Positions 11,740 through 28,671 of a DNA stretch of 64,000 bases are shown here, in pieces. This stretch comes from Gammaproteobacteria bacterium. GTDB taxonomy: Bacteria > Pseudomonadota > Gammaproteobacteria > JADZEE01. The position numbers were made by a program, and so were the translations under genes. The DNA lies in the NCBI GenBank assembly GCA_020850735.1, contig JADZEE010000007.1:1-64000 (forward strand). The letters run 5' to 3'. Every line of letters begins with the position of its first letter. The first letter of the stretch is position 1. Below the pieces are notes generated by a model. It saw only the letters and a program-made list of their open reading frames with translations, was not told the origin of the DNA and did not search any database.

Positions 11740-12906
11740 CTAAATCATTGGCTTGCCGTTGCAAGGCCGGGTCCTTGCGGGAGCCGTGGTCGCGGTCTGC
11801 TCAACCGGCGCGCGGGCCGGCTGCGATAACCGGGCACCGCCGCGCCAGTGCGCCATCACCGCCCGGCCTTCATCGCCACTGGCCGCCGCGCGCGCCCATA
11901 GCCGGCGCAGCAGCAAACACAGACCACGCTGTTCGGTGCGCCGGTACGGCGAGTCGGCCGGCAGGCGTTGGAGCAGGCGCCGGTGTGCGCGGCCGAGATT
12001 GTGATAAGGCAGAGCGGGGAACAGGTGATGCAGCGCGTGGTAGGCGAGACCGACCGGGCACAGCAGCTCGACCAGCCATGGCCAGCCGGCGAAATTGACC
12101 GAGTCGAGCATCTGCTGCAGATGGTCGACCGGCCGGCCCGGGACGCGGTAATGGTGCGCGATCAGCGTCCGGATCCAGTTCAGGCCGACGGCGAATACCA
12201 CCAGCGCGTAGACCTGCAGCAGGGTCATCACCCCGACCGCGCCGCCCAGGAGCGCTGCGGTGACGGCGAGCAGCCAGGCGCAGCAGGCGGCTTCCAGCCA
12301 TGCGAACCCGTGCTGGCGGCGGACGACCTCGGGGCTGCGCCGATACTGCGGGTTGATGACCAGGCAAGTGGCCCGTTCCAGCACCCAGGCGCGCAGGCCC
12401 GGATGCAGCCAGGACGCAGGCGCGAGCAGCAGGAAACGCGCCACCGCGAGCACCGGCAACAGGGGCAACAGGGCGGCAAAGCGCAGGATCTCGCTGGCTG
12501 GTGCGACGCCGAACGGCAGGTACTCGCCGTCGGCGGGCGTTCCGTAGCGGTGGCTGTTGTGGTGGTCGATGTGGCTCATGTACATCGGCGAAGGCGTCAG
12601 CAGCGGGATGCCGTACAGCAGGTTCCACGCGAGCTGGAATCCCGGCACGCGTTCGCGGCCGAGGTGCACCAGCTCGTGCATGAAGGCGCCGACGCGGTAC
12701 AGGGCGACTCCGGCGACCAGGAACGCGGGCAGCCGCCAGGTCCCGGGCACGGCGCTGTTGAGGTACAGCGCTGTCGCGCCGTAGGCCAGGATCGCGCTCG
12801 CCAGCAGGTCCATCCAGTAGACCCGCGCCGCCGGCTCGAAGAGATCGTGGATGACGCCTTTCGCTGCGCGCAGGTCGAAATCGCCACGCGGGCCCGCGGT
12901 GCTCAT
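11740..12906 (-). CDS. Membrane fatty acid desaturase/hydroxylase family protein
   Basis: This roughly 388-residue integral membrane protein has the three histidine boxes of the di-iron desaturase superfamily: HELVH, HIDHHNSH and HALHH followed by LFPALPYHN. Several hydrophobic helices lie between them. Such enzymes introduce double bonds or hydroxyls into acyl chains or sphingoid bases, and the position acted on is unknown. It lies directly downstream of the Tam41-like gene on the same strand, facing away from the ceramide operon across a shared intergenic region, so action on a sphingolipid or phospholipid chain is plausible. The start is uncertain (ATG 12906, ATG 12927 or GTG 12999). Confidence 0.85.
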   Translation of the reverse strand: MSTAGPRGDFDLRAAKGVIHDLFEPAARVYWMDLLASAILAYGATALYLNSAVPGTWRLPAFLVAGVALYRVGAFMHELVHLGRERVPGFQLAWNLLYGIPLLTPSPMYMSHIDHHNSHRYGTPADGEYLPFGVAPASEILRFAALLPLLPVLAVARFLLLAPASWLHPGLRAWVLERATCLVINPQYRRSPEVVRRQHGFAWLEAACCAWLLAVTAALLGGAVGVMTLLQVYALVVFAVGLNWIRTLIAHHYRVPGRPVDHLQQMLDSVNFAGWPWLVELLCPVGLAYHALHHLFPALPYHNLGRAHRRLLQRLPADSPYRRTEQRGLCLLLRRLWARAAASGDEGRAVMAHWRGGARLSQPARAPVEQTATTAPARTRPCNGKPMI

Positions 12907-12985
12907 CCGCGCGCCTGTGGCGGGCATCGGCGCTCGGGAGCACCCCCGTGTGGCGGCGCACAGCGCCCGTGCGGTGTAGCGCTGA

Positions 12986-13930
12986 TCACCGGAACGCACC
13001 CATGCGGTACAAGCGCCAGGCGGTCGCCCAGATGTGCAGCAAGGGGTGTCGCCGCATCGCGTCCGTTGCCTCCACGCGCACGCCCGAGTGCCGCTCGATT
13101 TTCCACAGCACGTAATCCACGCCGCCCTCGAAGGTGAACACGGCCTTGACCAGGCGCAACAGGTTCAACAGCTTGCCGTGTACGCGCCGCAATGGCCAGG
13201 TGAGCCGCGCGCGCCGGCGGGTGCGCCGGTCGGGTGGCGGCAGGGCGGCGGCGGTGGTGAAGTGGCGGTAGCGTTCGGGCGCGGCATCGACGATGCGTGC
13301 GGCGGCCAGCGCCGGATCCTCGGGACGCAGCTCCGTGGCGTAACTCGCGGCGAGTCCCGTGCGCCACAGCAGCAGCGCATCGGCCGGCGCCGGCACGATG
13401 GCCTGTGCCCGTGTGAGGAAGGTGAGCACGGCGGTGGTGAGGGCGTCGACCACCGCCACGCGCGCGGCGGTGTCGCGCAGGTATACGGCGGCGCAGGGCT
13501 GCGCAAACCGGGCCCACAACGAGGCCTGAAAGCAGCGCGGGGACACGTGGCGGACAAAATCACGCGCCGAGATCACGGCGTACTTCAACCGCAGCGGCGC
13601 CACCGGCGCCGACAGCTGCAGGTAGAAGACGTTCGGCGGCAGCAAGGCGTTGGCGAGCGCCGGAGTGAGGCGCCGGTAAGCCTGGTGGTAATCGTCGACC
13701 AGGACGTACAGGTCGAGCAGACCGTCGATGTCGGCGCGACCCCGAAAGCACGCGCCGTAGTAAAGGATGGCCAGCACGCTCTCGCCGAGGCGTGCGCGCA
13801 CCGCCGCCGCCGCCCGGACGGCGCGATCTCCGCAGGGGGCATCGATCTCGGCCGCAATGAGCGCGGCCAGCGCGGTTCGTGACGCGCATTCGTCGGGGGG
13901 GCTAGGGTTCTGCACGGCGCTGCGGGTCAC
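12986..13930 (-). CDS. Tam41-like nucleotidyltransferase (candidate CDP-lipid synthase)
   Basis: The roughly 314-residue protein resembles mitochondrial Tam41, the CTP:phosphatidate cytidylyltransferase. The matching elements, in order, are a YYGACFRG turn (YGSG in Tam41), DLYVLVDD with the metal-binding acidic residues, LRLKYAVIS (KYGVIS), and a C-terminal amphipathic segment VKAVFTFEGGVDYVLWKIE. The family makes CDP-diacylglycerol on membranes; acting on another phospho-lipid here would be inference. No ATG precedes the conserved core in frame. GTG 13930 or GTG 13915 are possible starts, and an in-frame TTG at 14170 is thought too far upstream. The next gene, the desaturase, follows about 80 bp later. 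Confidence 0.6.
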   Translation of the reverse strand: MTRSAVQNPSPPDECASRTALAALIAAEIDAPCGDRAVRAAAAVRARLGESVLAILYYGACFRGRADIDGLLDLYVLVDDYHQAYRRLTPALANALLPPNVFYLQLSAPVAPLRLKYAVISARDFVRHVSPRCFQASLWARFAQPCAAVYLRDTAARVAVVDALTTAVLTFLTRAQAIVPAPADALLLWRTGLAASYATELRPEDPALAAARIVDAAPERYRHFTTAAALPPPDRRTRRRARLTWPLRRVHGKLLNLLRLVKAVFTFEGGVDYVLWKIERHSGVRVEATDAMRRHPLLHIWATAWRLYRMGAFR

Positions 13931-14546: not shown

Positions 14547-16295
14547 ATGCATAAGCGTCCTACGCCGACCCAACACCAGTTGAAGCGCAGGCTGGCGGAT
14601 TTTTCCAGCCTTGCCGAAGCGCTCGACTACGCAGCCGACGGTGAGACGGGCTGCAACTACTACAGCGGTACAGGACAACTCGTCGCCGTGCTCGCGTACG
14701 CGGAGCTGCGCGATCAGGCGCTGGCGCTCGCGCGACGCCTGCACGGCCTGGGTTTGCAACGCGGCGCGCGGGTGGCGCTGGTGGCCGATACGAACCCGAG
14801 CTTCCAGCGTTTCTTCTTCGCCTGCCAGTACGCCGGGCTCGTACCGGTGCCCGTGGCGCCACCGCTGCACCTCGGTGGCCGCACCGCCTACGTGGAACAC
14901 CTGCACCGGCTGCTGGCGAACTGCCGCGCGACCGTCGGCATCGCACCGACGGAATTCGGTGCGCTGATGGCCGAGGCCGCCGAAGGGCTGCACCTGCAGT
15001 TTGTCGGCAGCCCGGAGGCGTTTTCACACTTCCCCGACGCGCACTGCCACCTTCGCCCTTCGTCTGCGGACGAGCTGGCGCACTTGCAGTACACCTCCGG
15101 CAGCACCAGGTTCCCCCGCGGCGTCATGATCAGCCAGCGCGCCGTGCTCGCCAATCTCGCCGGTACGTTCGGTCACATCCGGATCCGCGAAGACGATCGC
15201 TGCATGTCGTGGTTGCCCTACTACCACGACATGGGGCTGGTCGGACTGGTTCTCGGGCCGATCGCCGCGCAGTTGTCGGTGGACTACCTCGGCACTCGCG
15301 AGTTCGCGATGCGCCCGCGCCAGTGGCTGGTGCGGATGGCAGACAGCCGCGCGACCATCTCCTTCAGTCCGCCATTCGGGTACGAGCTGTGCGTGCGGCG
15401 ACTGCGTGAGAGCGACGTCAGCACGCTGGACCTCAGTGCCTGGCGCATTGCCGGTATCGGCGCCGAGAAGATCCGCCCGGAGCCGATGACCCGGTTCGCG
15501 GAGATTCTGGCGCCCTGCGGGTTCACGGCGCGCGCGTTTCTGCCCTGCTACGGACTGGCGGAGTCGTCACTGGCCGTGAGCTGTGTCGACCCGGGTGACG
15601 GGCTGCAGGCCGAGCTCGTCGACGGTGAGCATCTGGCGCAGACCCAGCAAGCGCTGCCGCTGACGGATGGGGGGGACACCCGTGCCAACGTATTCGTCAA
15701 TTGCGGTCGGCCACTCGATGGCCACGAAGTCGTCGCTCGCGGGTCTGACGCGAGCGTGCTCCCCGATCGCCAGTGCGGCACCCTCTATGTGCGTGGTCCG
15801 AGCGTCATGTCCGGGTACTTCGGCGTTGATGCGAACGAAAGCCACGTGCTGTCCGCGGACGGCTGGCTTGACACCGGCGACATCGGCTATCGGGTTGACG
15901 GCCACGTTTTCATCACCGGGCGCAAGAAGGATCTCATCGTCATCAACGGTCGTAATATCTGGCCGCAGGATCTGGAATACCTGGCCGAGCAGGAGCCCGA
16001 AGTGCGTTCCGGCGAAGCCTCTGCGTTCTCCGTCAGCGGACCGGACGGCTCGGAACGCGCAGTGCTCGTGATCCAGTGTCGGGAATCCGACCCCGCGCGG
16101 CGCCAGCACCTGACCCACCGCCTCGACCACGCGATCCGTACTGAGCTCGGCATCGAGTGCGTGATCGAGCTGGTCCCGCCGCACACCCTGGTGCGCACGT
16201 CGTCCGGCAAGCTGTCGCGGTCGCGTACGCGGCAGGATTTTCTCGAGCGGACCGACTGGGGACAGCACGTCCAGCCTCAGCGCGCGGCGGGCTGA
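14547..16295 (+). CDS. aasR: Fatty acyl-AMP ligase / acyl-ACP synthetase of sphingolipid locus
   Basis: The 582-residue adenylating enzyme has the ATP motif YTSGSTRFPRGV near residue 183. The STRxP variant is typical of fatty acyl-AMP ligases, in contrast to STGxPKG of acyl-CoA synthetases. YGLAESSLAVS, TGDIGYRVDGHVFITGRKKD and INGRNIWPQDLE follow, then the C-terminal lysine in SSGKLSRSR. The predicted role is to activate a fatty acid and load it on the ACP two genes downstream. ATG 14547 is chosen because AGGGGAA lies just upstream, and longer frames are not conserved-looking. Known Caulobacter sphingolipid clusters have the same gene next to cerR, acpR and spt. Confidence 0.85.
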   Translation: MHKRPTPTQHQLKRRLADFSSLAEALDYAADGETGCNYYSGTGQLVAVLAYAELRDQALALARRLHGLGLQRGARVALVADTNPSFQRFFFACQYAGLVPVPVAPPLHLGGRTAYVEHLHRLLANCRATVGIAPTEFGALMAEAAEGLHLQFVGSPEAFSHFPDAHCHLRPSSADELAHLQYTSGSTRFPRGVMISQRAVLANLAGTFGHIRIREDDRCMSWLPYYHDMGLVGLVLGPIAAQLSVDYLGTREFAMRPRQWLVRMADSRATISFSPPFGYELCVRRLRESDVSTLDLSAWRIAGIGAEKIRPEPMTRFAEILAPCGFTARAFLPCYGLAESSLAVSCVDPGDGLQAELVDGEHLAQTQQALPLTDGGDTRANVFVNCGRPLDGHEVVARGSDASVLPDRQCGTLYVRGPSVMSGYFGVDANESHVLSADGWLDTGDIGYRVDGHVFITGRKKDLIVINGRNIWPQDLEYLAEQEPEVRSGEASAFSVSGPDGSERAVLVIQCRESDPARRQHLTHRLDHAIRTELGIECVIELVPPHTLVRTSSGKLSRSRTRQDFLERTDWGQHVQPQRAAG

Positions 16296-16345
16296 ACACG
16301 ACCAGCGCCGGGTCGACGCTGCCACTTTCCCGCGACGCGGTCCGG

Positions 16346-17278
16346 ATGGACCGTTCCGTTGCCCTGACGGGCGCCACCGGATTCATCGGCAGTACGCTGC
16401 TGCGCCGCCTGCACGCCGACGGCTGGCGGGTGCGGGCACTGGTGCGCGCGCGGCGCCAGCCGCGTTCGTTGCCGCCGGCTGCGCAATGGATCACCGGGTC
16501 GCTCGAGGACCCCGCCGCGCTCGCGCGGTTGGTGTCGGGCGTCGACGCCGTGATACATTGCGCCGGCGCCGTCCGGGGCGCATCGTCGGCGCAGTTCGAG
16601 CGCGTGAACGCGGCGGGTGTCGCAGCCCTCGTGCGCGTGGCCGCGGCACAGGAACGCGTGCCCCGATTTCTGCTGCTGTCGTCCCTGGCGGCCCGTGAGC
16701 CGACGCTCTCACCCTATGCCGCCAGCAAGCGGCACGGCGAGCAGGCGCTCGACAGGCATGGGGAGACGACGCACTGGACCGTGTTGCGTCCGCCCGCGGT
16801 GTACGGCCCGGGCGACCGGGAGTTGCTGCCGCTGTTGCGGTGGATGGCGCGCGGCTGGGCAGTGATGGTCGGCGATCGCAGCGCGCGCTTTTCGTTGCTG
16901 TACGTGGAGGACCTGGCGGCCGCGATTGTGCACTGGCTCGAGCAGCCGCCGCCTGCGGGGACCGTGCTCGAGCTCGACGACGGCCGCGCCGGCGGGTACT
17001 GCTGGGCGGACGTGGTGGCGGTCGCAGCGCGCTTGCGCGGGCGGCGGGTCAGGCAGTTCACGGTGCCGGCAGCGGCTCTGGACCTGATTGCCGCGGCGAA
17101 TCTGCGCGCGGCCAGGCTGCTCGGCTACGCGCCCATGCTCACGCCGTGGAAGCTGGGCGAGCTGCGCCACGCCGACTGGGTATGCAAGGACGACGCGGCC
17201 AGGCGCGCGTTCGCGTGGCGCCCGCGGGTGAGCCTGGCCGATGGTATCGAACTTACGCTGCGCTCGTTTCGGGGATGA
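16346..17278 (+). CDS. cerR: NAD(P)-dependent epimerase/reductase, CerR-like (3-ketosphinganine/ketoceramide reductase)
   Basis: The 310-residue extended SDR protein has the dinucleotide motif TGATGFIGS (residues 8-16), DVAGL-type HCAGAV (71-76), serine pair LSS near 112 and the catalytic Y124-x3-K128 (PYAASK). In bacterial sphingolipid loci this family (CerR) reduces the 3-keto group made by serine palmitoyltransferase. That role here rests on its place between the acyl-AMP ligase and the ACP/spt pair. ATG 16346 is taken as start, 50 bp after the ligase stop. A generic sugar epimerase is the alternative on sequence alone. Confidence 0.78.
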   Translation: MDRSVALTGATGFIGSTLLRRLHADGWRVRALVRARRQPRSLPPAAQWITGSLEDPAALARLVSGVDAVIHCAGAVRGASSAQFERVNAAGVAALVRVAAAQERVPRFLLLSSLAAREPTLSPYAASKRHGEQALDRHGETTHWTVLRPPAVYGPGDRELLPLLRWMARGWAVMVGDRSARFSLLYVEDLAAAIVHWLEQPPPAGTVLELDDGRAGGYCWADVVAVAARLRGRRVRQFTVPAAALDLIAAANLRAARLLGYAPMLTPWKLGELRHADWVCKDDAARRAFAWRPRVSLADGIELTLRSFRG

Positions 17279-17310
17279 GCCCCGACCCGCGCCGTTCGGT
17301 CAGAACTGAC

Positions 17311-17562
17311 ATGCACAGCTACGACGAAGTCCTGCACCGACTGTACGAAATCCTGGCGCCGCACGCGGATCCGGGGATCGTGCTCGTGGAAAACACCGAC
17401 CTGGTCGTCGACCTGGGGCTGGACTCGCCCCGGGTCCTGGATCTCGTGCTGGAGCTGGAAGAGCATTTCGACGTCTCCGTGCCCATGAACGTGCTCCCGG
17501 ACGTGCAGACGATCGGCGACCTCGCCAGGCAGATCCAGCAACTGATCGACGCTACGCCGTGA
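17311..17562 (+). CDS. acpR: Acyl carrier protein dedicated to sphingolipid synthesis
   Basis: The 83-residue acidic helical protein has a phosphopantetheine attachment serine at about residue 39 in DLGLDSPRVLDLV. The usual DSL motif is DSP here. Sphingolipid-type serine palmitoyltransferases of Rhodobacteria are known to use a special ACP (AcpR) as acyl donor. The stop overlaps the GTG of spt by 4 bp (GTGA), so ACP and Spt are probably translationally coupled. ATG 17311 gives the normal ACP length. Confidence 0.88.
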   Translation: MHSYDEVLHRLYEILAPHADPGIVLVENTDLVVDLGLDSPRVLDLVLELEEHFDVSVPMNVLPDVQTIGDLARQIQQLIDATP

Positions 17563-18752
17563 GCCTGCTCAGCAAGTTCGAGACATACGACGCGCGTCGC
17601 CGCGAGCTCAATCGTATCGGGATCAACCCGTTCGGGGTCGTGCAGGAACGCGTACTGTCCGCGACCGAAGCCGTCATCAACGGGCGCGAGACGATACTCG
17701 CGGGCACGAACAACTATCTCGGTCTGACCTTCGACCCGGACTGCATTTCCGCGGCGAAGATCGCACTCGACGAGCAGGGCACGGGCACCACCGGTTCGCG
17801 CATGGCCAACGGCACCTTCGCCGAGCACCTTGCGCTCGAACGGGATCTCGCTGAATTCTTCGGTCGGCGGGCGGCGATCGTGTTCTCCACGGGATTCCTC
17901 GCCAATCTCGGCATTCTCTCGACTCTGACCGGTCGCGGGGACGTCATCGTGCTCGACGCCGACTGTCATGCCAGCATCTACGACGGCTGCCAGCTCGGCG
18001 GCGCGGAGGTCATCCGCTTCCGGCACAACGATGCCGGTGACCTGGCCAAACGACTGCGGCGGCTCGGTGAGCGTGCCGCCGACACGCTCGTGGTCGTCGA
18101 AGGCATCTACAGCATGCTCGGCGACAGCGCCCCACTGGCGGACATCGTGGCGGTCAAGCGTGAATTCGGCGCGCTGCTGCTGGTCGACGAGGCGCACTCG
18201 ATGGGTGTGCTCAGTGCGCGCGGCCTGGCCGAGGCGGCCGGCGTCGAAGCCGGAGTCGACTTCATCACCGGCACGTTCAGCAAGAGTCTCGGCGCGACCG
18301 GCGGTTTCTGTGTCAGCGACCTGCCCGAGCTCGATTCCATTCGCGTCGCCAGCCGCGCCTATGTGTTCACCGCGTCGCTGTGTCCCTCGGTGGTCGCCTC
18401 CACGCGCGCGGCGCTCGAGTGCGTGCGCAAGCGCCCGCATTTGCGCGCACAGTTGTGGCGCAACGCGCGTGACCTGTATGCCCGCCTGCAGGGCCTGGGT
18501 TTCACGCTCGGGCCCGAGCCGAGCCCGGTGATAGCAGTCCTCCAGGCGCAGCCCGAAGGGGCGCTGGCCTTCTGGGCAGGACTGCTGGAACGCGGCGTCT
18601 ACGTCAACCTGGTCCTGCCGCCGGCGACGCCCGCAGGCATGTCCCTGCTTCGCTGCAGCGTCAGCGCCGCGCACAGCGAAAATCAGATCGCGGCGATCGC
18701 GGCCGCTTTCGGCGCCGTACGCGCAGATCTGGAGACGACCTCCGCCGCCTGA
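17559..18752 (+). CDS. spt: Serine palmitoyltransferase
   Basis: The 397-residue fold-type I PLP enzyme of the alpha-oxoamine synthase family condenses serine with a C16-type acyl thioester to 3-ketosphinganine. Visible residues are H137 (stacks on PLP), D210 and H213 in DEAHSMG, and the PLP lysine K242 in GTFSKSLGATGG. The FSKS form favours Spt over KBL (GKALGG), ALAS (GKAFG) and BioF. The GTG start overlaps the acpR stop. The neighbours ligase-CerR-ACP reproduce the known Caulobacter ceramide gene set. It is cytoplasmic, without membrane helices, as in other bacteria. Confidence 0.9.
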   Translation: MSLLSKFETYDARRRELNRIGINPFGVVQERVLSATEAVINGRETILAGTNNYLGLTFDPDCISAAKIALDEQGTGTTGSRMANGTFAEHLALERDLAEFFGRRAAIVFSTGFLANLGILSTLTGRGDVIVLDADCHASIYDGCQLGGAEVIRFRHNDAGDLAKRLRRLGERAADTLVVVEGIYSMLGDSAPLADIVAVKREFGALLLVDEAHSMGVLSARGLAEAAGVEAGVDFITGTFSKSLGATGGFCVSDLPELDSIRVASRAYVFTASLCPSVVASTRAALECVRKRPHLRAQLWRNARDLYARLQGLGFTLGPEPSPVIAVLQAQPEGALAFWAGLLERGVYVNLVLPPATPAGMSLLRCSVSAAHSENQIAAIAAAFGAVRADLETTSAA

Positions 18753-18777
18753 GCGGGACGGATCGGCGCCGGTGGCG

Positions 18778-19542
18778 CTACAGGACGCGGCGCAGCGCCG
18801 CCGCGCCGCGGGACGGGGCGGGATCCGCGAACAGTGCACGGGCGCGCTCGAGGTCGCGCGGAAAATCCACCTCACCCCAGCGCAGGCCGTGCACTGATTC
18901 GACCCGCACGAGACCGCGCTCCGCCAGTACCCCGACGGCCTTCAGATACCACCAGCCGAGGCTGTTCGGCGTGCGCATGATCTGGTTGACTACCGTCGCG
19001 AACTCGCGCGCACCGTCGGCGCTGAATCTGAGCATGCCGATCGATTCCCCGTGCACGCTGTCGGGTGCGAGCGTCTTGCCGACTTCCAGCAGGCGCGTGC
19101 CGTCGACACGGACTTTCATGTCGTCGGCGTCGTAGCCATTCTTGATGTCGATGGCCATATTCACCGGTGCGAGGGGCGCTGCCAGCAGGTGCGCGCAAAC
19201 GGCCGGGTCGAACAGCGTGTCGCCGTTGACGAGCACGAAGTCCGTATCCATCTCCCCCCGAACCATCCAGCAGCTCGCGAGATTATCGGCGACGTTGAAA
19301 AACGGGTTGTAGGCGCAGCGTACCGCCAGGCCAGGGCGGTCGAGCCCGGCCATGCAGTGCTCGACGGCGCCGGCGCAGAATCCGGTGACGACCACGATCT
19401 CGCGAACTCCGACCTGGTACAGGGCGTGAACCTGTTTCTCCAGCAGCGTCTCATCATCGATGGGAAGCAGGCATTTGGGCGTGTTCTCGGTGAGCGGCAG
19501 CAGTCGCGAACCCTGTCCCGCGCTGAGAATGATGGCTTTCAT
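18778..19542 (-). CDS. Nucleotidyltransferase (LicC/phospho-head-group cytidylyltransferase type)
   Basis: The 254-residue Rossmann-like NTP transferase starts MKAIILSAGQGSRLLPLTE, with G9-x-G11-x-R13 and P22-K23 binding the nucleotide, and has FVLVNGDTLFD as the metal site. The family includes choline-phosphate, phosphoethanolamine and inositol-1-phosphate cytidylyltransferases. It is last in a minus-strand operon with a HAD phosphatase and a CDP-alcohol phosphatidyltransferase, so it probably makes a CDP-activated head group. Which alcohol is used cannot be told. It is convergent with spt, with only 25 bp between stops. ATG 19542 is chosen over a 29-codon longer frame. Confidence 0.82.
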   Translation of the reverse strand: MKAIILSAGQGSRLLPLTENTPKCLLPIDDETLLEKQVHALYQVGVREIVVVTGFCAGAVEHCMAGLDRPGLAVRCAYNPFFNVADNLASCWMVRGEMDTDFVLVNGDTLFDPAVCAHLLAAPLAPVNMAIDIKNGYDADDMKVRVDGTRLLEVGKTLAPDSVHGESIGMLRFSADGAREFATVVNQIMRTPNSLGWWYLKAVGVLAERGLVRVESVHGLRWGEVDFPRDLERARALFADPAPSRGAAALRRVL

Positions 19543-20284: not shown

Positions 20285-21456
20285 GAGCGCACCGTACCAC
20301 CGCGCAGACGGTACCCGAGCGCCTGTGTGAAGCGGACCAGGTGAAACACGAGCGACAGCACCGTCCAGATCGCCATTGCCAGGAAGCCGACGTCCGCACG
20401 ACCGCAGATGGCCCCGAGCGTCAGCAGCGCCAGGTTCGGGTTGCGGCGGGCCGTGATGGTGCGGAACCACGAGTCTATCCGTCCCCACACGTGCATCTGG
20501 ATGTCGAAGGCGTAGACGAACGCGCCCTCCAGGATCCGGCCGAGCACATAGCCGCCGATCACGATCGCAAACGCGGGTTGCAGGTAGGGGAGCATGTGGT
20601 CGGGAGCGCTCGCGAGCATGCCGTGATACCAGGCCCACCACCAGAACGGCGGATGCAGCAGATCGATGCCGTGATCGTACAGGTTCCCCCAGCGCGAGGA
20701 GGTGAGCGTGACCCGGGCGAGCTTGCCGTCGACCGTGTCGAGAAACGTCATTGCCCACGCGACGGGTATGCCGAGCAGCCAGTTGCCGCGGGCGAACAGC
20801 CAGGTGGCGACGACGACCAGCACCAGGCTCGCGGTGGTCACCGTATTGGGACGGATCCCGCGGGCCGCGGCCCAGCGTGTCACCCACCGTGCCGGTACCG
20901 GCCAGCACCACTTGGTGACGAAATCCGTGGCGCCCTTGTATACCGCGGCGAACGTTCTCTTTTCGACTTCTGCGGGCGCCGTCCGCGGGAGCGAAAGGAC
21001 CAGCGGCGCAGCGCGCTTGCGCAACGCGTCATCGTAGCTCGAACCGAGCGTCTGCGCCGTCAGCAGGCGCACCCCCGCAGGCACCGGCGCATCCGCCGCC
21101 AGGGTGCCTGCCTCGAGCAGGCGCGTGACAGCCTCGACATCCGCGGCGCGGGCATGTGCCGCCACCAACGTGTGCTCGCCGGATCCCGGGCCCGGGATCC
21201 CGAGAATGACGTCCGGGGTGCGCACCAGCGCACGGGCCAACTCCTCGGCAATGACACAGTCTTCGCGGACGATGAGCGCCGCACCTGTGTTACCCGCCAC
21301 CGGATCTGCCGCCCCGGCGCGGGCGAAGGCGCGACGATGACGCTCCGCAGGCGTCAGGCCCCAGAGCAGAGCCTGGTAGGGGGCCACCAGCACGAGCGCG
21401 GGGCCGCTTTCCCGGGGCGCGGCGATCGTCGAGGTCGGTAGCGTCGAATGCGACAT
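20266..21456 (-). CDS. CDP-alcohol phosphatidyltransferase with decayed N-terminal nucleotidyltransferase-like domain
   Basis: The 396-residue protein has two parts. Residues about 173-390 are a multi-helix CDP-alcohol phosphatidyltransferase with the complete motif D240-x2-D243-G-x2-A-R-x8-G-x3-D261-x3-D265. Residues 1-165 look like a remnant nucleotidyltransferase: WGLTPAERHRRAFARAGA and GAALIVREDCVIAEEL are in the right order, but the P-loop and the lysine are missing. Bifunctional IPCT-DIPPS enzymes have this architecture with an active N-domain. Here a separate nucleotidyltransferase two genes on may supply the lost activity. The acceptor (ceramide or glycerolipid) is unknown. ATG 21456 is chosen; in-frame ATG 21510 lies within the repeat at 21495. 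Confidence 0.85.
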   Translation of the reverse strand: MSHSTLPTSTIAAPRESGPALVLVAPYQALLWGLTPAERHRRAFARAGAADPVAGNTGAALIVREDCVIAEELARALVRTPDVILGIPGPGSGEHTLVAAHARAADVEAVTRLLEAGTLAADAPVPAGVRLLTAQTLGSSYDDALRKRAAPLVLSLPRTAPAEVEKRTFAAVYKGATDFVTKWCWPVPARWVTRWAAARGIRPNTVTTASLVLVVVATWLFARGNWLLGIPVAWAMTFLDTVDGKLARVTLTSSRWGNLYDHGIDLLHPPFWWWAWYHGMLASAPDHMLPYLQPAFAIVIGGYVLGRILEGAFVYAFDIQMHVWGRIDSWFRTITARRNPNLALLTLGAICGRADVGFLAMAIWTVLSLVFHLVRFTQALGYRLRGGTVRSWMSAS

Positions 21457-21512: not shown

Positions 21513-21645
21513 CACACCAATGCGGGCCTCGCTGCCAAGTCGGGACGCGCCGTCCGCAGGCCGGAGCGCGGGCGCCGTTCTTCTTAGGGCCGGGATGAAC
21601 GGGTAAACTCCCACCGGCCCGCGACGCATCCCGTCGTTGCGCGCA

Positions 21646-22767
21646 ATGCGTAGGGGCGGGACGCACCCATTGATCATCGAGCGCTACATCGCCGCCGAAG
21701 TCCTCAGACCGCTGATGGCGAGCGCGACCTTCCTGCTGGTGATTTTCGTCGGCTACAGCTCGGCGCAGTTTCTCACCGATGCAGTGAACGGGCTGCTGCC
21801 CGTCGATGTCCTGTATTCGCTCATCCTGCTCAAAGCGGCCGTCGCGCTGGAGGTGCTGCTGCCGATTGCGCTGTATGTGTCGGTCGTGCTCGGACTCGGC
21901 AGGCTGTACGGTGACTCCGAAATCACGGCGATGCTTGCCTGCGGGATCGGTCTCGGCCGGGTCGTGCGCGTCGTGTTCGTGGTATCGCTGGCGCTGGCAC
22001 TGGCGGTCGCCGGGCTGTCGCTCTACGGTCGGCCGCGAGCTTATGAGGAAAGTTACTGGATCCGCGCCCGGGCCGATGCCCAGATGGTCCTGGACCGGCT
22101 CGAAGGCGGTCGCTTTTTCATCGGCACGCACAGCGGACGGGCGATTTTCGTCGGCCATGTCGGGGTCGGCGGGATCCTCCACGACGTCTTCCTGCGCGAC
22201 GAGATCAGGAACGTCGTGCACCTGGTCCGGGCGCGACGCGGTCACCAGCAGGTCGATCCCGGCAGCGGGCGGCGCCGACTGGTGCTCGAGGACGTGCGCC
22301 TGTACGCGCTCAATCGGGACAACACGCACGACATCATCGGTCGTTTCGGTCAGTTCGCAATCGTCCTCGACACGCCGGGACGCGTGTCCGTGGGATATCG
22401 CCGCAAGGCGGCACCAACCCTGGAGCTGGTCGGGTCACGGCAGCCGGAGGATCTGGCCGAGCTGCAATGGCGGATTTCAACGCCCGTGTCCACTGTGTTG
22501 CTCGGTCTGCTGGGCGTGGTGGTCGGACGCTCGGGACGGGGTCGCGGCCGTAGCCGCTACGGCAAGATGATTGCGGCGACCCTCGTCTATGCCGCCTACT
22601 ACAACGTGAGCGCCCTGGCCAGGACGTGGGTCGACAAGGGCGTCGTGCCCGTCGTACCCGGAATCTGGTGGGTACAGGTGCTGTTCGCCGTGCTGCTGGT
22701 TTTCCTGTTCGCGCTGCCGCGCCTGCGGTTCCGCCGCCGCCGCGTCGTGGCGCTGTCGCCACGCTGA
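21646..22767 (+). CDS. lptF: LptF-type permease (YjgP/YjgQ family)
   Basis: The roughly 373-residue protein has the LptF/G plan: three N-terminal membrane helices, a periplasmic beta-jellyroll middle (about residues 140-265) and three C-terminal helices. It opens with the family's IIERYIAAEVLRPL and has the G-DSEITAMLACGI loop that couples to LptB. LptF and LptG extract LPS from the inner membrane. Here the gene starts an operon of lipid-modifying genes rather than sitting near pepA, so it may handle another lipid. Start choices are ATG 21646 (no clear ribosome site) or TTG 21670 behind GGGGCGGGA; TTG 21637 is also open. Confidence 0.85.
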   Translation: MRRGGTHPLIIERYIAAEVLRPLMASATFLLVIFVGYSSAQFLTDAVNGLLPVDVLYSLILLKAAVALEVLLPIALYVSVVLGLGRLYGDSEITAMLACGIGLGRVVRVVFVVSLALALAVAGLSLYGRPRAYEESYWIRARADAQMVLDRLEGGRFFIGTHSGRAIFVGHVGVGGILHDVFLRDEIRNVVHLVRARRGHQQVDPGSGRRRLVLEDVRLYALNRDNTHDIIGRFGQFAIVLDTPGRVSVGYRRKAAPTLELVGSRQPEDLAELQWRISTPVSTVLLGLLGVVVGRSGRGRGRSRYGKMIAATLVYAAYYNVSALARTWVDKGVVPVVPGIWWVQVLFAVLLVFLFALPRLRFRRRRVVALSPR

Positions 22768-22780
22768 GGCGGGTTCGCAC

Positions 22781-23887
22781 GTGCGCATCTTCGGGCGATA
22801 CATCCACGACCACCTCGCGCGCGGCTTCGTGCTGGTACTGCTGTTGCTGCTCACGTTGTTCAGTTTCATCGATTTCGTCGACGAACTGGAGGAAACCGGC
22901 CGCGGCCGCTACGGTGCGCTCGATGCTGTGAACTTCGTCGTGCTCATGACACCGGCCCGCGTGCTGGGCCTGGTGCCCGTCACCGCGCTGCTCGGTACCT
23001 TGTTCGGCCTCGGTGTGCTGCAGCGGTCGAACGAGCTCACCGCCATGCGTGCCGCCGGCGTCTCGCCACTGACGATCCTCGCGGCCGTCGTCCGGGCCGG
23101 CGCGGTCCTGCTCGTGGTGGTCGCGGTCCTCGCCGAGTTCGTGGCGCCCCGCCTCGCCCAGCGTGCCTGGGAGCAGCGCGCGCGCGCACTTTCCGGTGAC
23201 GTCATCGCCTACACGGAGGAGGGCGGCAGCTTCTGGTTCCGTGACGGCGCACGCTTCATCAAGGTCGGCGAGATGCGCTTCGGGCGCGACCCGATCGACG
23301 TCGAGATCTACGATTTCGACGCCGCGGGCAGGCTGCATGCATACATCCAGGCGCAAGAAGCCGAAAAGCTGGCGCCGGGTCGCTGGCTGCTCAGGCAGGT
23401 GCGTGAGAAGCGTTACGGCGAAGCGGCCGTGGAGCTGTTGCGTCTGCCGACGCTGGTGTGGACCGGCTTTCTCAGTCCCGAGCAGGGCGCCGTGACCGAG
23501 CTCGACGTCGACAGCCTGGCGCCGTCGACCCTGTACCTGTACGCGGCGGATCTGCGCCGGCGCGGGCAGAACGCGGAACGCTACGAAGTCGCACTGTGGC
23601 GCAAGCTGTCGCTGCCCGTTGCGACCATGGCGATGCTGCTGGTCGCGGTGGCATTCATGTTCGGCGCGTTCGGTCTGACCGGGATGGGTCAGCGGGTGTT
23701 TGCCGGCGCGGTCGTCGGCGTCGTGTTCTACCTCGCGGACCAGATCCTGGCGCAGACGGGCCTGCTGGTCGGGCTCAATCCGGCGTGGCCCGCGCTCGTG
23801 CCCGCGCTGCTGCTGGGTGCGTCCGGATACTGGCTGCTGCTGCACGCCGCTTCGCGCGGACGCCGGACCGGCCGCCGCCGCGGCTGA
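22781..23887 (+). CDS. lptG: LptG-type permease (YjgP/YjgQ family)
   Basis: The 368-residue partner of the preceding gene begins MRIFGRYIHDHLARGF and has the same 3 helices-periplasmic domain-3 helices order. RSNELTAMRAAGVSP is the cytoplasmic coupling helix that meets the ABC ATPase. Start is GTG 22781 after GAGGCGGG, 13 bp behind lptF. No lptB is in the operon; the ATPase could be shared with the housekeeping Lpt system. Whether the genome has another lptFG pair cannot be seen from this window, but the context suggests a specialised copy. Confidence 0.85.
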   Translation: MRIFGRYIHDHLARGFVLVLLLLLTLFSFIDFVDELEETGRGRYGALDAVNFVVLMTPARVLGLVPVTALLGTLFGLGVLQRSNELTAMRAAGVSPLTILAAVVRAGAVLLVVVAVLAEFVAPRLAQRAWEQRARALSGDVIAYTEEGGSFWFRDGARFIKVGEMRFGRDPIDVEIYDFDAAGRLHAYIQAQEAEKLAPGRWLLRQVREKRYGEAAVELLRLPTLVWTGFLSPEQGAVTELDVDSLAPSTLYLYAADLRRRGQNAERYEVALWRKLSLPVATMAMLLVAVAFMFGAFGLTGMGQRVFAGAVVGVVFYLADQILAQTGLLVGLNPAWPALVPALLLGASGYWLLLHAASRGRRTGRRRG

Positions 23888-23941
23888 TGTCCCGCCGTGC
23901 TGATTTGGCAGCCGTCGCGCCGTTCGTGCGATCATGGGCGG

Positions 23942-24739
23942 ATGCATCCGGGTCCCGAATTCACGGCACTCGTACTGGCCGGCAGTCGCGGCGCGGGCGA
24001 TCCGGTCGCCCGTGCCGGGGGCTGCAGTCACAAGGCGCTCGTGACGGTCGCCGGTGTGCCGATGCTCGCGCGCGTCCTGGACGCGCTGGCGGCGAGCTCG
24101 AGCATCAGGCGCATCGTGATCTGCGTAGAGGCCGACGCCGCGGTGCTCGCGGACCCGCATATCGCGATGCGGGTCGCCGAAGCGGACTGCTCGCACGTCG
24201 ACGCGGCGGGGTCGCCGGCGCGCAGCGTGCTCGCGGCCATGGCAGCCATCGACGATGCGCTTCCCCTGCTCGTGGTCACCGGCGACCACCCGCTGCTCAG
24301 CAGCGCGATGATCGATCATTTCTGCCGTGCGGCGCGGGCGGCGGACGTCGCCGTCGGGCTCGCCCGGGCCGAACTGGTCCTGGCCGCCTACCCGCGCACG
24401 GTGCGCACGCAGCTCAGGTTTGCGGACGGCGCCCGGTGCGGCTGCAACCTGTTTGCCCTGAACACGGCTGCGGCGCGGGCCGCGCCCCGGCTGTGGCAGC
24501 GCGTCGAGGCGGCGCGCAAGCGACCGTGGCGCGTAATTGGCGCATTCGGCGCCGCGACGCTGCTGCGCTATGCCTGCGGGACCTTGAGCACCGATGCGGC
24601 CATGGCCGCCGCGTCCGCGCGACTGGGTGTGACGGTGCGGGCGGTGGACATGCCGTTCGCGGACGCGGCGGTGGACGTCGACAGCGCCGCGGATCTCGCT
24701 CTCGTGCGCCAGCGGCTCGAAACCCGGGAGCATCCCTGA
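23942..24739 (+). CDS. Nucleotidyltransferase-like protein (MobA-like fold) in lipid operon
   Basis: The 265-residue protein has an NTP-transferase opening FTALVLAGSRGAGD, a lysine at about residue 31 (HKALVTVAGVPMLARVLDAL) and LVVTGDHPLLS as the metal-binding strand. It has no molybdopterin gene context, and lies 54 bp after lptG and 2 bp before a lipid kinase. A role in making a nucleotide-activated head group or sugar for the phosphorylated lipid is inferred from context. The glycine-rich loop is unusual (GSRGAGDPVARAGG), so activity is not certain. ATG 23942 is the start. Confidence 0.72.
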   Translation: MHPGPEFTALVLAGSRGAGDPVARAGGCSHKALVTVAGVPMLARVLDALAASSSIRRIVICVEADAAVLADPHIAMRVAEADCSHVDAAGSPARSVLAAMAAIDDALPLLVVTGDHPLLSSAMIDHFCRAARAADVAVGLARAELVLAAYPRTVRTQLRFADGARCGCNLFALNTAAARAAPRLWQRVEAARKRPWRVIGAFGAATLLRYACGTLSTDAAMAAASARLGVTVRAVDMPFADAAVDVDSAADLALVRQRLETREHP

Positions 24740-24741
24740 CG

Positions 24742-25716
24742 GTGCAAGCGCGCGGCCCGGTCAAGACCGGCGTGATTACCAACCCCCGCAGCCGCGCCAA
24801 CCGTCGCGGCTTTGCCGACATAAGCGCGGTGCTCGCGCGCCGCGCCGGTGTCGTCCATCGCGTGCTCGAGGAGTTCGCCGATCTGCCCGGAGTGCTGCGT
24901 GAATTCGCGCAGGCGCAGGTGGGGCTGGTGGCGATCAATGGCGGCGATGGCACGGTGCAGGCGACGCTGTCGGAGCTGTTGCGTGAACCGGTCCGCGAAC
25001 CCCTGCCGTTGCTGGGCGTGCTCGCGGGCGGCACGACGAACGCGATCGCCAACGACGTCGGCGGCCGGGGCCGGCGCGTCGCGGTCCTCGCGCGCTTGAT
25101 CGAGCAGGGGCGCGGCGGGGTCGATCCGGCGCTGGTCACGGCGCGCCACGTCATCGCGCTACGGCGCGCCCCGGGCGAACCCGTTCGCTACGGTATGCTG
25201 TTCGGCAGCGCCGGGATCAGCAGGGGCATCGCGCTGCGCCGTGCGCTGATCCCGCAGATCTGGGTGCCGGACGCGCTCGCCAACGCCGCGGTCGTCGCCG
25301 GGCTCGCGCTCGGCTGGTCGCTCGGTCTTGCGTTCGCGCGCCGGGTGTTCGAGGGTGAACCCGTCGGCGTCGGTTTCGATGGTGAGCAACCGGTGCGCGG
25401 CCATCACGTCATCGTGCTGGTGACGACCCTGCAACGCCTCGTGCTGGGTATGCGCCCGTTTTGGGGCACGGGCCCCGGGGGCTTGCAATACACGAGCATC
25501 GCTTACCCGCCGCGGGCCCTGCTCGGCAATCTGCGCCGCCTGCTCTACGGTGACCGGCAACGCCGCCTGCCGGCAGGCTATTTGAGCCGCAACGCCGACG
25601 CGATATCGCTGCGACTGAGCTGCCCGTTCGTGCTGGACGGGGAGTTCTACGAGCCCGCGCCGGGGCAGCCGGTAGAGCTTCGCGCCGGGCCGCGGGTTGG
25701 CTTCCTGCGATGCTGA
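24742..25716 (+). CDS. Diacylglycerol kinase-family lipid kinase (candidate ceramide kinase)
   Basis: The 324-residue protein has the DAGK catalytic motif NGGDGTVQA (residues 66-74) and the following GVLAGGTTNAIANDVG nucleotide-binding loop, then a beta-sandwich domain. The family phosphorylates diacylglycerol, sphingosine or ceramide. Caulobacter has a ceramide kinase of this fold (CpgB) in its sphingolipid locus, which makes ceramide the likeliest substrate here. Start GTG 24742 lies 2 bp after the previous stop, with GGGAG upstream. Its C-terminal third contains a membrane-like stretch (residues about 178-203). Confidence 0.78.
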   Translation: MQARGPVKTGVITNPRSRANRRGFADISAVLARRAGVVHRVLEEFADLPGVLREFAQAQVGLVAINGGDGTVQATLSELLREPVREPLPLLGVLAGGTTNAIANDVGGRGRRVAVLARLIEQGRGGVDPALVTARHVIALRRAPGEPVRYGMLFGSAGISRGIALRRALIPQIWVPDALANAAVVAGLALGWSLGLAFARRVFEGEPVGVGFDGEQPVRGHHVIVLVTTLQRLVLGMRPFWGTGPGGLQYTSIAYPPRALLGNLRRLLYGDRQRRLPAGYLSRNADAISLRLSCPFVLDGEFYEPAPGQPVELRAGPRVGFLRC

Positions 25717-25762
25717 CAGCTAGCCGCTGCGGGTGGGTGCGCCCTGCGAGGCCGCCGGGCTG

Positions 25763-27499
25763 ATGCGCATGCTGCTCGCATTCGCCCGCTGCTATCCGGC
25801 GCACAGCGTCGCCACGCTGGTGGCGCTGCTCGTTGCCGGGCTGATGGAAGGCGTGGGCCTGTCCACTTTGCTGCCCATTCTGTCGGTGGCAATCGGTGGC
25901 GAGCCCGGCACGGCAACCGGTGCGACCGCGAAGCTGACGCAGCTGGTGCCGGACGCGCTGGCGTCGCTCGGCGTCACCCCGACCGTCGGGGCGCTGCTCG
26001 CGGTCATGGTCGCCGGGATCGTGCTCAAGAGCTTCCTGTTACTGCTGGCCCAGCGCCACGTCGGTTACACCATCGCCCACATCGCGACCGACCTGCGTCT
26101 TGCGCTGATTCGTGCGGTGCTGTGCGCGCGCTGGGAATACTATCTGCACCAGCGCATCGGCAGCTTCGCCAATGCCGCCGGCACGGAGGCCATCCGGGCC
26201 TCCTACGCCTATTACTACGGGGCCCGGGCGATTGCCTACCTGGTGCAGGCCTGCGTCTACGTCGGCGTGGCATTCGCGGTTTCCTGGCAGGCGAGCGCCA
26301 TCTCCCTCATCGCCGCAGGGGTCCTGCTGCCGATGTTCAGCCGGCTCGTGCGTTCGACCCGGCGGGCGGGGCTGCGCCAGACCAGGGTGCTCAAGTCACT
26401 GCTGGCGCGTCTGACCGACGCGCTGCTGTCAGTCAAACCGCTGAAGTCGATGGCGCGCGAGGATCTCGTCGGCCCGTTGCTCGAGGCCGAAACCCACGAG
26501 CTCAACCTGGCGCTGCGCCGGGAGGTCATGAGCAAGGAGGCGATGCGCGCCGTCCAGGAGCCGACGATCACGGCCCTGATCGCGGTCGGTTTGTACGTGG
26601 CGCTGGTGCGCTTCGAAGTTTCCCCGGCCGTCGTACTGGCACTGGTGTTCCTGCTCGCCCGCGGCTTGTACCAACTCGCCATCGTCCAACGCATGTACCA
26701 GCACATGGTCAACGACGAGAGCGCCTACTGGTCACTTCAGGAGACGATCCAGGGCGCCTGCGCGGCGCGTGAGGTGGCGAACGGCACGCGCGCGCCCACG
26801 CTCGAGGAGGGTATCCGTTTCGACGCCGTGAGCTTCAGCTACGCCGACAAGCCTGTCCTCGACCAGGCGACGCTGGCGATCGGGGCCGGTGACTTCGTGG
26901 CGCTGGTCGGTCCGTCCGGGGAGGGCAAGACGACCGTCGTCGATCTGGTCACCGGTTTGCTGCGTCCCCAGCAGGGACGCGTGCTCATCGACGGCATTGC
27001 GCTGGACGAGATCGATCTGCAGCGCTGGCGGCGGATGATCGGTTACGTCCCGCAGGAGACCGGCCTGCTGCACGACACCGTGCTGAACAACGTCACGCTC
27101 GGGGACCCGCAGCTCGACGAGGCAGCGGCCGAGGTCGCATTGCGCGCCGCCGGGGCCTGGGAGTTCGTCGCCGCCATGCCCGCCGGACTGCAAGCGACGG
27201 TGGGCGAGCGCGGTACGCGCCTTTCCGGTGGTCAACGCCAGCGCATCGTCATCGCCCGCGCGCTCGTACATCGTCCGCGCCTGCTCATTCTCGACGAGGC
27301 GACGAGCGCGCTCGACCATAACAACGAGGTGGCCGTGTACCGGGCATTGCGCGCCCTCGATCCCGCGCCGACCATCCTCGCCATTTCCCACCGGGCGGCG
27401 GCCGAAGGAGTCGCCGATCACGTCTACCGTCTGCGCGGCGGGGTTTTCGTCGCGGCCGGCGACGACAGCGCCGGCAGCGCAGCCGAGGCGCGCCAGTGA
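25763..27499 (+). CDS. MsbA-like ABC exporter (fused membrane and ATPase domains)
   Basis: The roughly 578-residue half-transporter has six transmembrane helices in residues 1-300, then an ATPase domain with Walker A GPSGEGKTT, signature LSGGQRQ, Walker B LLILDEATSALD and the switch histidine in ISHR. The architecture is that of MsbA and other lipid flippases. Its position between the lipid kinase and the ceramide acyltransferase gene suggests flipping of a (phospho)ceramide across the inner membrane. Start ATG 25763 is preferred over GTG 25733. The stop overlaps the next gene's GTG by 4 bp. Confidence 0.86.
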   Translation: MRMLLAFARCYPAHSVATLVALLVAGLMEGVGLSTLLPILSVAIGGEPGTATGATAKLTQLVPDALASLGVTPTVGALLAVMVAGIVLKSFLLLLAQRHVGYTIAHIATDLRLALIRAVLCARWEYYLHQRIGSFANAAGTEAIRASYAYYYGARAIAYLVQACVYVGVAFAVSWQASAISLIAAGVLLPMFSRLVRSTRRAGLRQTRVLKSLLARLTDALLSVKPLKSMAREDLVGPLLEAETHELNLALRREVMSKEAMRAVQEPTITALIAVGLYVALVRFEVSPAVVLALVFLLARGLYQLAIVQRMYQHMVNDESAYWSLQETIQGACAAREVANGTRAPTLEEGIRFDAVSFSYADKPVLDQATLAIGAGDFVALVGPSGEGKTTVVDLVTGLLRPQQGRVLIDGIALDEIDLQRWRRMIGYVPQETGLLHDTVLNNVTLGDPQLDEAAAEVALRAAGAWEFVAAMPAGLQATVGERGTRLSGGQRQRIVIARALVHRPRLLILDEATSALDHNNEVAVYRALRALDPAPTILAISHRAAAEGVADHVYRLRGGVFVAAGDDSAGSAAEARQ

Positions 27500-28671
27500 C
27501 ACCCCGGGCCGATGCCGTCGCGGCAGCAGCGATGCGCAGCAACGACGTTGAAATCCTGCCGGTCGGCACGCGCCGAACACGCCGGGCTTTCCTCGATCTA
27601 CCCCGGCGACTGTACCGTGACGACCCCATTTGGCGGGGCCCGCTGACGATCGAACGGCGGCTGCATGTCTCGCGCTACAATCCCTACTTCGAGCACGCCC
27701 GCTGGCAGGGCTTCCTGGCGATGCGTGGTGGCGAGCCCGTCGGTCGCATCAGCGCCCAGGTCGACGATCTGCATCGCGCCCGCTACGGGCCCGACACCGG
27801 CCATTTCGGCATGCTCGAAGCCGTCGACGACGGGGCGGTGTTCGCCGCGCTCCTGGGCGCGGCCGAAGCGTGGCTGCGGGAGCGGGGAACGCGTCGGGTC
27901 ACGGGCCCGTTCAGCTTTTCCGTGAACCAGGAGTGCGGCCTGCTCGTAGAGGGATTCGACACGCCGCCGGCGGTGATGATGCCGCATGGCCGGCCGTGGT
28001 ACGGGCCGCGGCTCGAGGCGCTGGGATACAGGCAGGCCAGGGATCTGCTGGCCTACTGGATCAACACCGATTTCGAACCGCCGCCCGTCATGGTCGCGCT
28101 GCTCAAGCGTTACCAGAAGCGGATCCGGATCCGCACGATGCAGCGTTCGCGCTTCCGGCAGGAGCTCGAGCTACTGAGTGAGCTGTTCAACGACGCGTGG
28201 TCGGAGAACTGGGGTTTCGTGCCGTTCACCGAAGCGGAGTTCGCCGAGCTCGGTCTGCTGTTGCGCCTGGCTGTACCCGATGATCTGATCCAGATCGCCG
28301 AGCTCGACGGCGAGCCCGCCGCTTTCGTCGTCGGACTGCCCGATCTCAATGCCGCGGCGCGCGACCTCGACGGCCGGCTGCTGCCGTTCGGCTGGGCACG
28401 GCTGTTGTGGCGGCTCAAGCGGGGGCTGGTGCCGACCGGACGGGTTCCGTTGATGGGCGTGCGCAAGCGGCTGCAGAAGAGCACGCTCGGCTCGGCGCTC
28501 GCCCTGGGGGTCATCGGCGCAGTCAAGCAGACCCTGTTTCGGCGCGGCATACGCCACGTGGAGTTGTCATGGATCCTGGAGGACAACGCCGGCATGCGCA
28601 GCATACTCGAGGCCATCGGCAGCGATCTGTACAAGCGTTACCGGCTCTATTCCCGCGACCTGCGCGGCTGA
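27496..28671 (+). CDS. bCerS-type ceramide acyltransferase (GNAT-like fold)
   Basis: The 391-residue protein belongs to a proteobacterial family often mislabelled as dATP pyrophosphohydrolase. Hallmarks are [20 protein letters not shown] followed by [14 protein letters not shown] near residues 135-170 and a GNAT-like C-terminal half ending [22 protein letters not shown]. In Caulobacter a member of this family (bCerS) N-acylates the sphingoid base to ceramide. Together with spt, acpR, aasR and cerR it completes the five-gene set known to be needed for ceramide. GTG 27496 overlaps the ABC stop; ATG 27532 is an alternative. It converges on and overlaps the macro-domain gene by 25 bp. Confidence 0.75.

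Follow-up and report, generated by a model that had tools for sequence, protein, structure and literature searches.

We analyzed a stretch of 64 000 nt (hereafter, the window) from contig JADZEE010000007.1 of the Gammaproteobacteria bacterium assembly GCA_020850735.1; positions 11740–28671 carry 15 tightly packed genes that we read as a locus for synthesis, head-group attachment and export of a sphingolipid. The genes, named on the basis of family models, solved structures and comparisons with homologues, form four apparent transcription units: CpgC–desaturase (−), AasR–CerR–AcpR–Spt (+), CpgA–HAD–CpgD (−) and LptF–LptG–NT2–CpgB–ABC exporter–bCerS (+). With the starts chosen here, AcpR and Spt overlap by 4 bases, the exporter and bCerS by 4, CpgA and HAD by 19. 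The genes listed in an earlier, sequence-only reading of this DNA are present where it had placed them, and family models agree with its ligase, acyl carrier protein (ACP), CDP-alcohol transferase, HAD phosphatase, diacylglycerol kinase (DAGK)-type kinase, FA_desaturase, two nucleotidyltransferases (NTases) and LptF/LptG permeases.

The ceramide synthesis set, aasR, cerR, acpR, spt and cerS, was found in one place with all five genes, as that reading had claimed. AasR (14547..16295, +) is a fatty acyl-AMP/ACP ligase (NF006624, 771.8 bits, cut-off 600); CerR (16346..17278, +) is a NAD-dependent epimerase-type reductase (PF01370, 110 bits) with the sequence TGATGFIG, a TGxxGxxG motif; AcpR (17311..17562, +, alternative ATG start at 17275) is an acyl carrier protein (PF00550, 38.2 bits). 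The GNAT-type ceramide synthase bCerS (27496..28671, +, if the GTG start at 27496 is used; PF00583, 21.7 bits) is 46% identical over 376 residues, in a local alignment, to the homologue in the Caulobacter locus of our comparison set (L075, from Caulobacter vibrioides DSM 9893). Spt (17559..18752, +), 59% identical to its L075 homologue, passes the curated equivalog model for serine palmitoyltransferase (NF047599, 611.9 bits, cut-off 500); its scores against the models for BioF (317.6 bits) and glycine C-acetyltransferase (294.4 bits) are both below those models' own cut-offs. Its nearest structures in PDB are solved serine palmitoyltransferases (2x8u, 447 bits), the best KBL scoring 212. Model and PDB scores, used here instead of a tree, thus favour serine palmitoyltransferase over KBL or BioF, the assignment that the sequence-only reading had named as its own refutation.

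A locus of this composition has a counterpart in Caulobacter crescentus, where CC_1168–CC_1152 likewise bring together the five ceramide genes, CpgA–CpgD, a CC_1153-type NTase and, alongside, a second LptF/LptG pair. Work with mutants has shown that formation of ceramide phosphoglycerate (CPG) and of its diphosphoglycerate form, CPG2, depends on genes of this cluster (Olea-Ozuna et al. 2024, PMC11324152). The same source reports contiguous clusters of this kind in Azotobacter vinelandii and Pseudomonas luteola, which are also gammaproteobacterial and have no orthologues of CC_1166 to CC_1168 and CC_1158. Homologues of CpgA, CpgB, CpgC, CpgD and CC_1153 are all present in the window with 31–51% identity to the L075 proteins (the CC_ queries were taken from L075, with names assigned by gene position). 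The locus is a further member of the published CPG/CPG2 cluster kind; as such it is not new, because the Caulobacter set and two contiguous gammaproteobacterial clusters are in print (PMC11324152). The ‘decorated phospho-ceramide’ proposed earlier is therefore backed by its gene set, but it is the known CPG2 route rather than an addition to it.

Differences from Caulobacter are nevertheless clear. The window has no homologues of CC_1158, CC_1157, CC_1166, CC_1167 and CC_1168 (64 kb searched at E 0.01); it has instead a HAD, an ABC exporter and a desaturase-family gene, and its LptF/LptG pair falls in branches other than those of Caulobacter LptF2/LptG2 in a 60-row tree described below.

We compared the locus with the best 80 Spt loci of other named records (more exist), counting genes that passed fixed bit-score thresholds and lay up to some 10 kb from Spt. 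AcpR was present in all 80, CerR in 66, AasR in 62 and bCerS in 46. In the 39 loci that span 20.5 kb or more, the ceramide genes numbered AasR 39, CerR 38, AcpR 39 and bCerS 31, and the head-group and export genes NT2 25, LptF 25, CpgB 22, CpgA 18, CpgC 18, exporter 18, LptG 17 and CpgD 10. Three of the 80 (L009, L042 and L075) have all ten of AasR, CerR, AcpR, bCerS, CpgA, CpgB, CpgC, CpgD, NT2 and LptF beside Spt. The grouping is more than chance: ceramide, head-group and export genes lie near Spt again and again.

The Spt locus closest to that of the window comes from a metagenome-assembled genome (MAG) named Gammaproteobacteria. Locus L009 (Gammaproteobacteria bacterium OFTM106, JAJFJQ010000066) resembles the window in having the desaturase, CpgC, bCerS, AasR–CerR–AcpR–Spt, CpgD, CpgA, LptF, LptG, NT2 and the kinase within 21 kb; it differs in that bCerS adjoins CpgC, no HAD of the window type is present, the exporter is elsewhere, and NUDIX, epoxide-hydrolase-type and phosphoglycerate mutase genes stand between Spt and CpgD. 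In P. asuensis (L041), which is closely related to P. luteola, the exporter comes next after Spt; a desaturase and a HAD of the window types were not detected in the locus.

The MsbA-like ABC exporter (25769..27499, +, alternative GTG start at 25733; PF00005 and PF00664) is a proposed ceramide-lipid flippase. Its family (>300 bits) is represented in 32 of the 80 Spt loci; in 25 of them the exporter gene comes immediately after Spt, and in the other seven it has a different place in the locus. Proteins of the CC_1166 type, presumably Wzx-type (Pfam gave no such match), occur in 13 of the 80. No locus has both and 35 have neither; with relatedness ignored, Fisher's test of this exclusion gave p 0.0011 for the 80 loci and 0.004 for the 39 long ones. 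At the genome level, a search at E 1e-10 gave a CC_1166-type protein in 4 of 13 genomes; the nine of these 13 that carry the exporter all gave none, and the best exporter match in the Caulobacter genome is 30% identical. The genome of the window likewise has no CC_1166-type match at E 1e-10. We rejected the idea that the CC_1166 type is mainly alphaproteobacterial: alphaproteobacteria account for 5 of the 13 loci (L074, L075, L081, L085, L087), the others being, by record title, from Nitrospirae, beta- and gammaproteobacteria. None of the exporter loci came from a Nitrospirae record.

A search of 143 class genomes for Spt (E up to 1e-100) gave six with the gene, from six families; these six also have the exporter (E up to 1e-100), which was not found in the remaining 137. 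In four of the six the two genes either lie at most 4 kb apart or belong to one cluster (7 kb apart in the window); they are on different contigs in genome G034 and 160 kb apart on one contig in G065. Spt and exporter are also on different contigs in G001 and in the genome of L009. As the two co-occur even where they are far apart, the link does not come from proximity alone.

The two permeases, LptF2 (21646..22767, +; TIGR04407, 286.6, cut-off 230) and LptG2 (22781..23887, +; TIGR04408, 323, cut-off 240), are the second LptF and the second LptG of the assembly, whose four matches are the window pair, an LptG on contig C81 and an LptF on contig C92. That the window pair could be the assembly's sole lipopolysaccharide (LPS) permeases was rejected, given the C81 and C92 genes. 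The usual lptF–lptG pair appears split in this assembly: the C81 LptG gene directly neighbours a pepA-type M17 aminopeptidase gene, without an intervening lptF. In G001 the pair is likewise split, and in the genome of L009 the LptF and LptG that are not linked to Spt are on separate contigs.

In the 60-row tree, Spt-linked LptF proteins of gammaproteobacteria, deltaproteobacteria and a Nitrospirae MAG form one branch (10 rows, support 100/99) and the Spt-linked LptG proteins of the same groups another (10 rows, 100/100). A Methylohalobius pair falls inside both, and the Spt-linked rows of Caulobacter and Oleisolibacter fall outside (the Oleisolibacter branches are long). This tree had 60 of 76 matches from 18 of 22 genomes, with three of four for Desulfoprunum and without Pseudomonas sp. 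Root562, C. radicis, BMS3Bbin13 and a Thermodesulfobacteriaceae MAG. A quick 67-row tree (no bootstrap), with 20 of 22 new matches alongside the two earlier Methylohalobius rows and without Caulobacter, Oleisolibacter, Rhodanobacter and Salinisphaera hydrothermalis rows, kept both groups: 19 LptF rows, 14 of them linked (SH-aLRT 99), and 19 LptG rows, 13 linked (SH-aLRT 97). Rows were labelled ‘linked’ manually, by their positions on the contigs; L201 was labelled unlinked though it is on a 3.3-kb contig.

One could argue that the two permeases and the ABC exporter handle LPS or some other lipid and are mere neighbours of the sphingolipid genes. Both window permeases do exceed the cut-offs of the LPS-permease equivalogs, and the only pair found in three Methylothermaceae belongs to these same branches. 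We think this unlikely, since the C92 LptF (317.3 bits) and the C81 LptG (399.3 bits) both outscore the window pair on the LPS models, Spt-linked pairs group together across phyla, and the exporter occurs with Spt even when the two are apart (on one contig in G065, at 36% identity; on different contigs in G034 and G001). By sequence, then, the window LptF/LptG is a second set whose kin travel with Spt, though these branches need not be confined to sphingolipid transport. The three Methylothermaceae (G021, G164 and G165, with loci L054, L055 and L066) look as if a single pair served both lipids. An ‘own route to the outer membrane’, as claimed earlier, thus keeps its second LptF/LptG set and candidate export genes, but loses force where a same-branch pair is the sole one.

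The route of sphingolipids to the outer membrane is, according to the pathway paper, not known; there, CC_1166 and LptF2/LptG2 are proposed as transport parts in Caulobacter (PMC11324152). We propose, at about even odds, that the exporter family consists of dedicated ceramide-lipid flippases, mostly of gamma- and deltaproteobacterial loci, replacing the CC_1166 type; with LptF/LptG recruited separately, parts of LPS export would have given rise to sphingolipid export to the outer membrane on two or more occasions.

A number of observations weigh against the proposed export roles. Fisher's test takes no account of relatedness, and some of the 35 loci with neither protein are short. The CC_1166-type matches outside alphaproteobacteria are weak (93–191 bits against 303–865 bits in alphaproteobacteria), so some of them may be other flippases. 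The class search scored only nine exporter candidates per genome in nearly every genome listed; the G065 match is only 36% identical; and in one alphaproteobacterium (L086) the exporter lies 8 kb away from Spt. Besides the sole pairs of the three Methylothermaceae, the LptF/LptG branches contain unlinked pairs of two gammaproteobacterial MAGs (the genomes of L033 and L037) and one deltaproteobacterial row; they may represent a wider lineage of LPS transporters. No Caulobacter-type LptC2 is present in the window. The stronger idea of purely sphingolipid-specific branches was weakened when the 20 added rows brought in unlinked pairs.

The association of the exporter with Spt and the recruitment of LptF/LptG apart from Caulobacter are apparently new. 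In the open-licence literature we did not find the exporter–Spt link, the separate LptF/LptG branches or the HAD gene overlapping CpgA, and passages of PMC9386255, PMC11334938 and PMC10331486 do not link the exporter or LptF/LptG to bacterial sphingolipids. The locus names a candidate flippase, whose homologue sits directly after spt in Pseudomonas (e.g. L041, L059).

For the head group, the best-resolved protein is the CpgD homologue (18778..19542, −), a predicted CTP:phosphoglycerate cytidylyltransferase 50% identical to its Caulobacter homologue. This activity of CpgD has been reported (PMC12275187), and structures with residue contacts are given in a preprint (PMC13228409). The window protein shares 11 of the 13 residues published as binding the substrates or acting in catalysis. 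Thr88, replaced by Ala, makes its published contact via the backbone, and the replacement of Thr93 by Ser keeps the hydroxyl; with 11 residues kept and the other two changes conservative or at a backbone contact, the head group becomes predictable, and the residues point to CDP-glycerate as the product. A gene for a 2,3-bisphosphoglycerate-dependent phosphoglycerate mutase (13153–13953 of L009; TIGR01258, 211.9, cut-off 81.7) lies tail to tail with cpgD in L009, the only one of the 80 loci with this gene, which is absent from the window as well. Its position fits 2-phosphoglycerate as the substrate of CpgD.

The CpgA homologue (20266..21456, −; CC_1159 type) combines an NTase-like N domain with a CDP-alcohol phosphotransferase domain; it is 51% identical to the Caulobacter homologue over 301 residues locally, and 45% in the full alignment. 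The CDP-alcohol phosphotransferase motif D..DG..AR...G...D...D is complete at residues 240–265, with positions invariant in 17 rows. An AlphaFold-type model (pLDDT 84.9) has AF2299 (4o6n, TM 0.65/0.76) as its best PDB match, with IPCT-DIPPS (4mnd) at rank 6. Archaeal IPCT-DIPPS and AF2299 share with CpgA the modelled two-domain fold and a cytidylyltransferase partner; they differ in that CpgD and CpgA of the window are separate proteins with predicted use of glycerate, while IPCT-DIPPS serves the di-inositol phosphate route and its inositol products. A possible profile link between the N domain of CpgA and CpgD (28% probability over 31 columns) led nowhere.

The CpgC homologue (12986..13930, −; CC_1161 type) is 39% identical over 248 residues to that of L075 and is proposed to act in activation of ceramide-1-phosphate. 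The four best PDB matches of its AlphaFold model (pLDDT 90.6) are all Tam41 (7ecd/6ig2/6ig4; E 2.3e-06 to 3.6e-05), 7ecd with E 2.3e-06 and TM 0.51/0.58, and the family profile matches Tam41 6ig2 at E 3e-04. PF09139 is matched by 9 of 19 of its relatives (E up to 1, the best hit at 4.2e-07), the L042 protein with 23.6 bits against a gathering score of 24. We call the protein, on its model, Tam41-fold and not Tam41, because the window protein itself has no PF09139 match at E 1; the ‘Tam41-like’ of the sequence-only reading thus holds for the fold but not for the sequence. CC_1161 has been proposed to activate ceramide-1-phosphate, making NDP-activated ceramide (PMC11324152). ‘CDP-ceramide’ in bacteria was not found under that name in the open-licence literature; the idea itself is already in that paper.

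CpgB (24772..25716, +, alternative GTG start at 24742), a predicted DAGK-family ceramide kinase 31% identical to the L075 homologue, has 40.3 bits against PF00781 and the family motif GGDGT at residues 57–61. NT2 (23942..24739, +, alternative GTG start at 23897; PF12804, 57 bits) is a MobA/CofC-like NTase of CC_1153 type, 39% identical to the L075 homologue. It adjoins bCerS in 31 of the 36 loci holding both, and is not adjacent to it in the window; the adjacency hints at a role of NT2 closer to ceramide than the late step proposed below.

It could also be that the organism makes ceramide with a head group other than phosphoglycerate, such as inositol phosphate or another phospho-alcohol, the substrates of CpgD and CpgA having shifted. 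Inositol-type models do match, weakly, with CpgD (NF041135, 55.8 bits, cut-off 580) and CpgA (PIPSynth, 43.3, cut-off 170), and IPCT-DIPPS is among the fold matches of CpgA. However, the glycerate-contact residues of CpgD, Asn90, Asn110, Met147, Lys161 and Ser170, are identical in the window and invariant in 15 of 15 family rows, and no inositol-phosphate synthase is found among the 15 genes; a shifted head group seems quite unlikely. Against a phosphoglycerate route through CpgA, on the other hand, stands the fact that Caulobacter makes CPG without CpgA, so that the enzyme for the first glycerate is not known (PMC11324152).

The HAD-IB hydrolase (19574..20284, −, with GTG start at 20284 if used; PF12710, 122 bits; TIGR01490, 124.3, cut-off 98.3; motif DLDNT) overlaps CpgA, where many clusters have instead a metallophosphoesterase beside CpgA. 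The latter, of CC_1158 type, occurs in 18 of the 80 loci and lies within 267 bases of CpgA in all 11 loci holding both; searches of the window at E 0.01 and of the genome at E 0.001 (the latter with the Salinicola homologue as query) gave none. One may guess that the HAD replaces the CC_1158-type metallophosphoesterase. A HAD of the window type occurs in a single locus of the 80 (L058, 36%), downstream of CpgC, with CpgA not detected in the locus. A point against such a replacement is L009, with neither this type of HAD nor the metallophosphoesterase in its 21 kb; neither need therefore be required. The HAD that L009 does have belongs to a different subfamily and lies at a distance from CpgA. 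CC_1158 is not essential for CPG2 in Caulobacter (PMC11324152). The earlier remark that no unrelated gene interrupts the locus is fair, except that the HAD is only putatively connected with the pathway.

The FA_desaturase-family membrane oxygenase, a desaturase or hydroxylase (11740..12999, −, start at 12999 GTG or 12927 ATG; PF00487, 84.8 bits), has three histidine boxes, HELVH, HIDHH and HALHH. It adjoins CpgC in L009 as well (48% identity). Caulobacter vibrioides DSM 9893 has a homologue (39%) off its Spt contig, one of two FA_desaturase proteins there, either of which may be CC_0202. In Caulobacter, CC_0202 is reported to hydroxylate the amide-linked acyl chain (PMC11324152).

Taken together, we consider it likely, with a probability of about 0.8, that the locus carries a complete gene set for an anionic phospho-ceramide of CPG/CPG2 type plus candidate genes for its transfer to the outer membrane. 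We infer the following route from ceramide via ceramide-1-phosphate and CDP-ceramide to phosphoglyceryl ceramide. AasR would load a fatty acid onto AcpR, Spt would join the fatty acid to serine, and bCerS and CerR would complete dihydroceramide, with the oxygenase probably hydroxylating or desaturating a chain. CpgB would phosphorylate ceramide; CpgC, with CTP, would activate ceramide-1-phosphate; CpgD would make CDP-glycerate; CpgA would join a CDP-activated unit to a hydroxyl. NT2 might activate a further phosphoglycerate-type unit and the HAD might remove a phosphate. The exporter could then flip the product, and LptF2/LptG2 could carry it outward with LptB, C, A, D and E, presumably shared with LPS. 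A charged ceramide lipid of this kind helps Caulobacter survive without LPS, and the locus offers a natural comparison for telling which head-group steps are fixed and which are swappable (metallophosphoesterase versus HAD).

That intact genes sit on a contaminating contig is very unlikely, assembly contamination of 5.89% notwithstanding, since GC content per 2 kb is 0.65–0.73 in the locus and 0.64–0.71 in the remaining window, and the genome of L009 provides the tree sister of the window LptF and LptG as well as of the C92 LptF and the C81 LptG (four sister pairs).

A clear compositional sign of recent import of the locus was likewise rejected, its GC content being near that of the surroundings. 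No match to rpoB was found in the assembly. Of the class relatives, 25 among the matches listed in the 143 genomes searched share the class only; the organism seems distant from them. One flank of the locus has genes resembling parts of pyruvate dehydrogenase (read by eye). At the other, a macro-domain protein of O-acetyl-ADP-ribose deacetylase type (28647–29258) is encoded on the opposite strand and overlaps the end of bCerS. Finally, a Mito_fiss_Elm1 (PF06258) protein is encoded in 16 of the 80 Spt loci (e.g. L018, 8245–9360), mostly loci unlike the window type.

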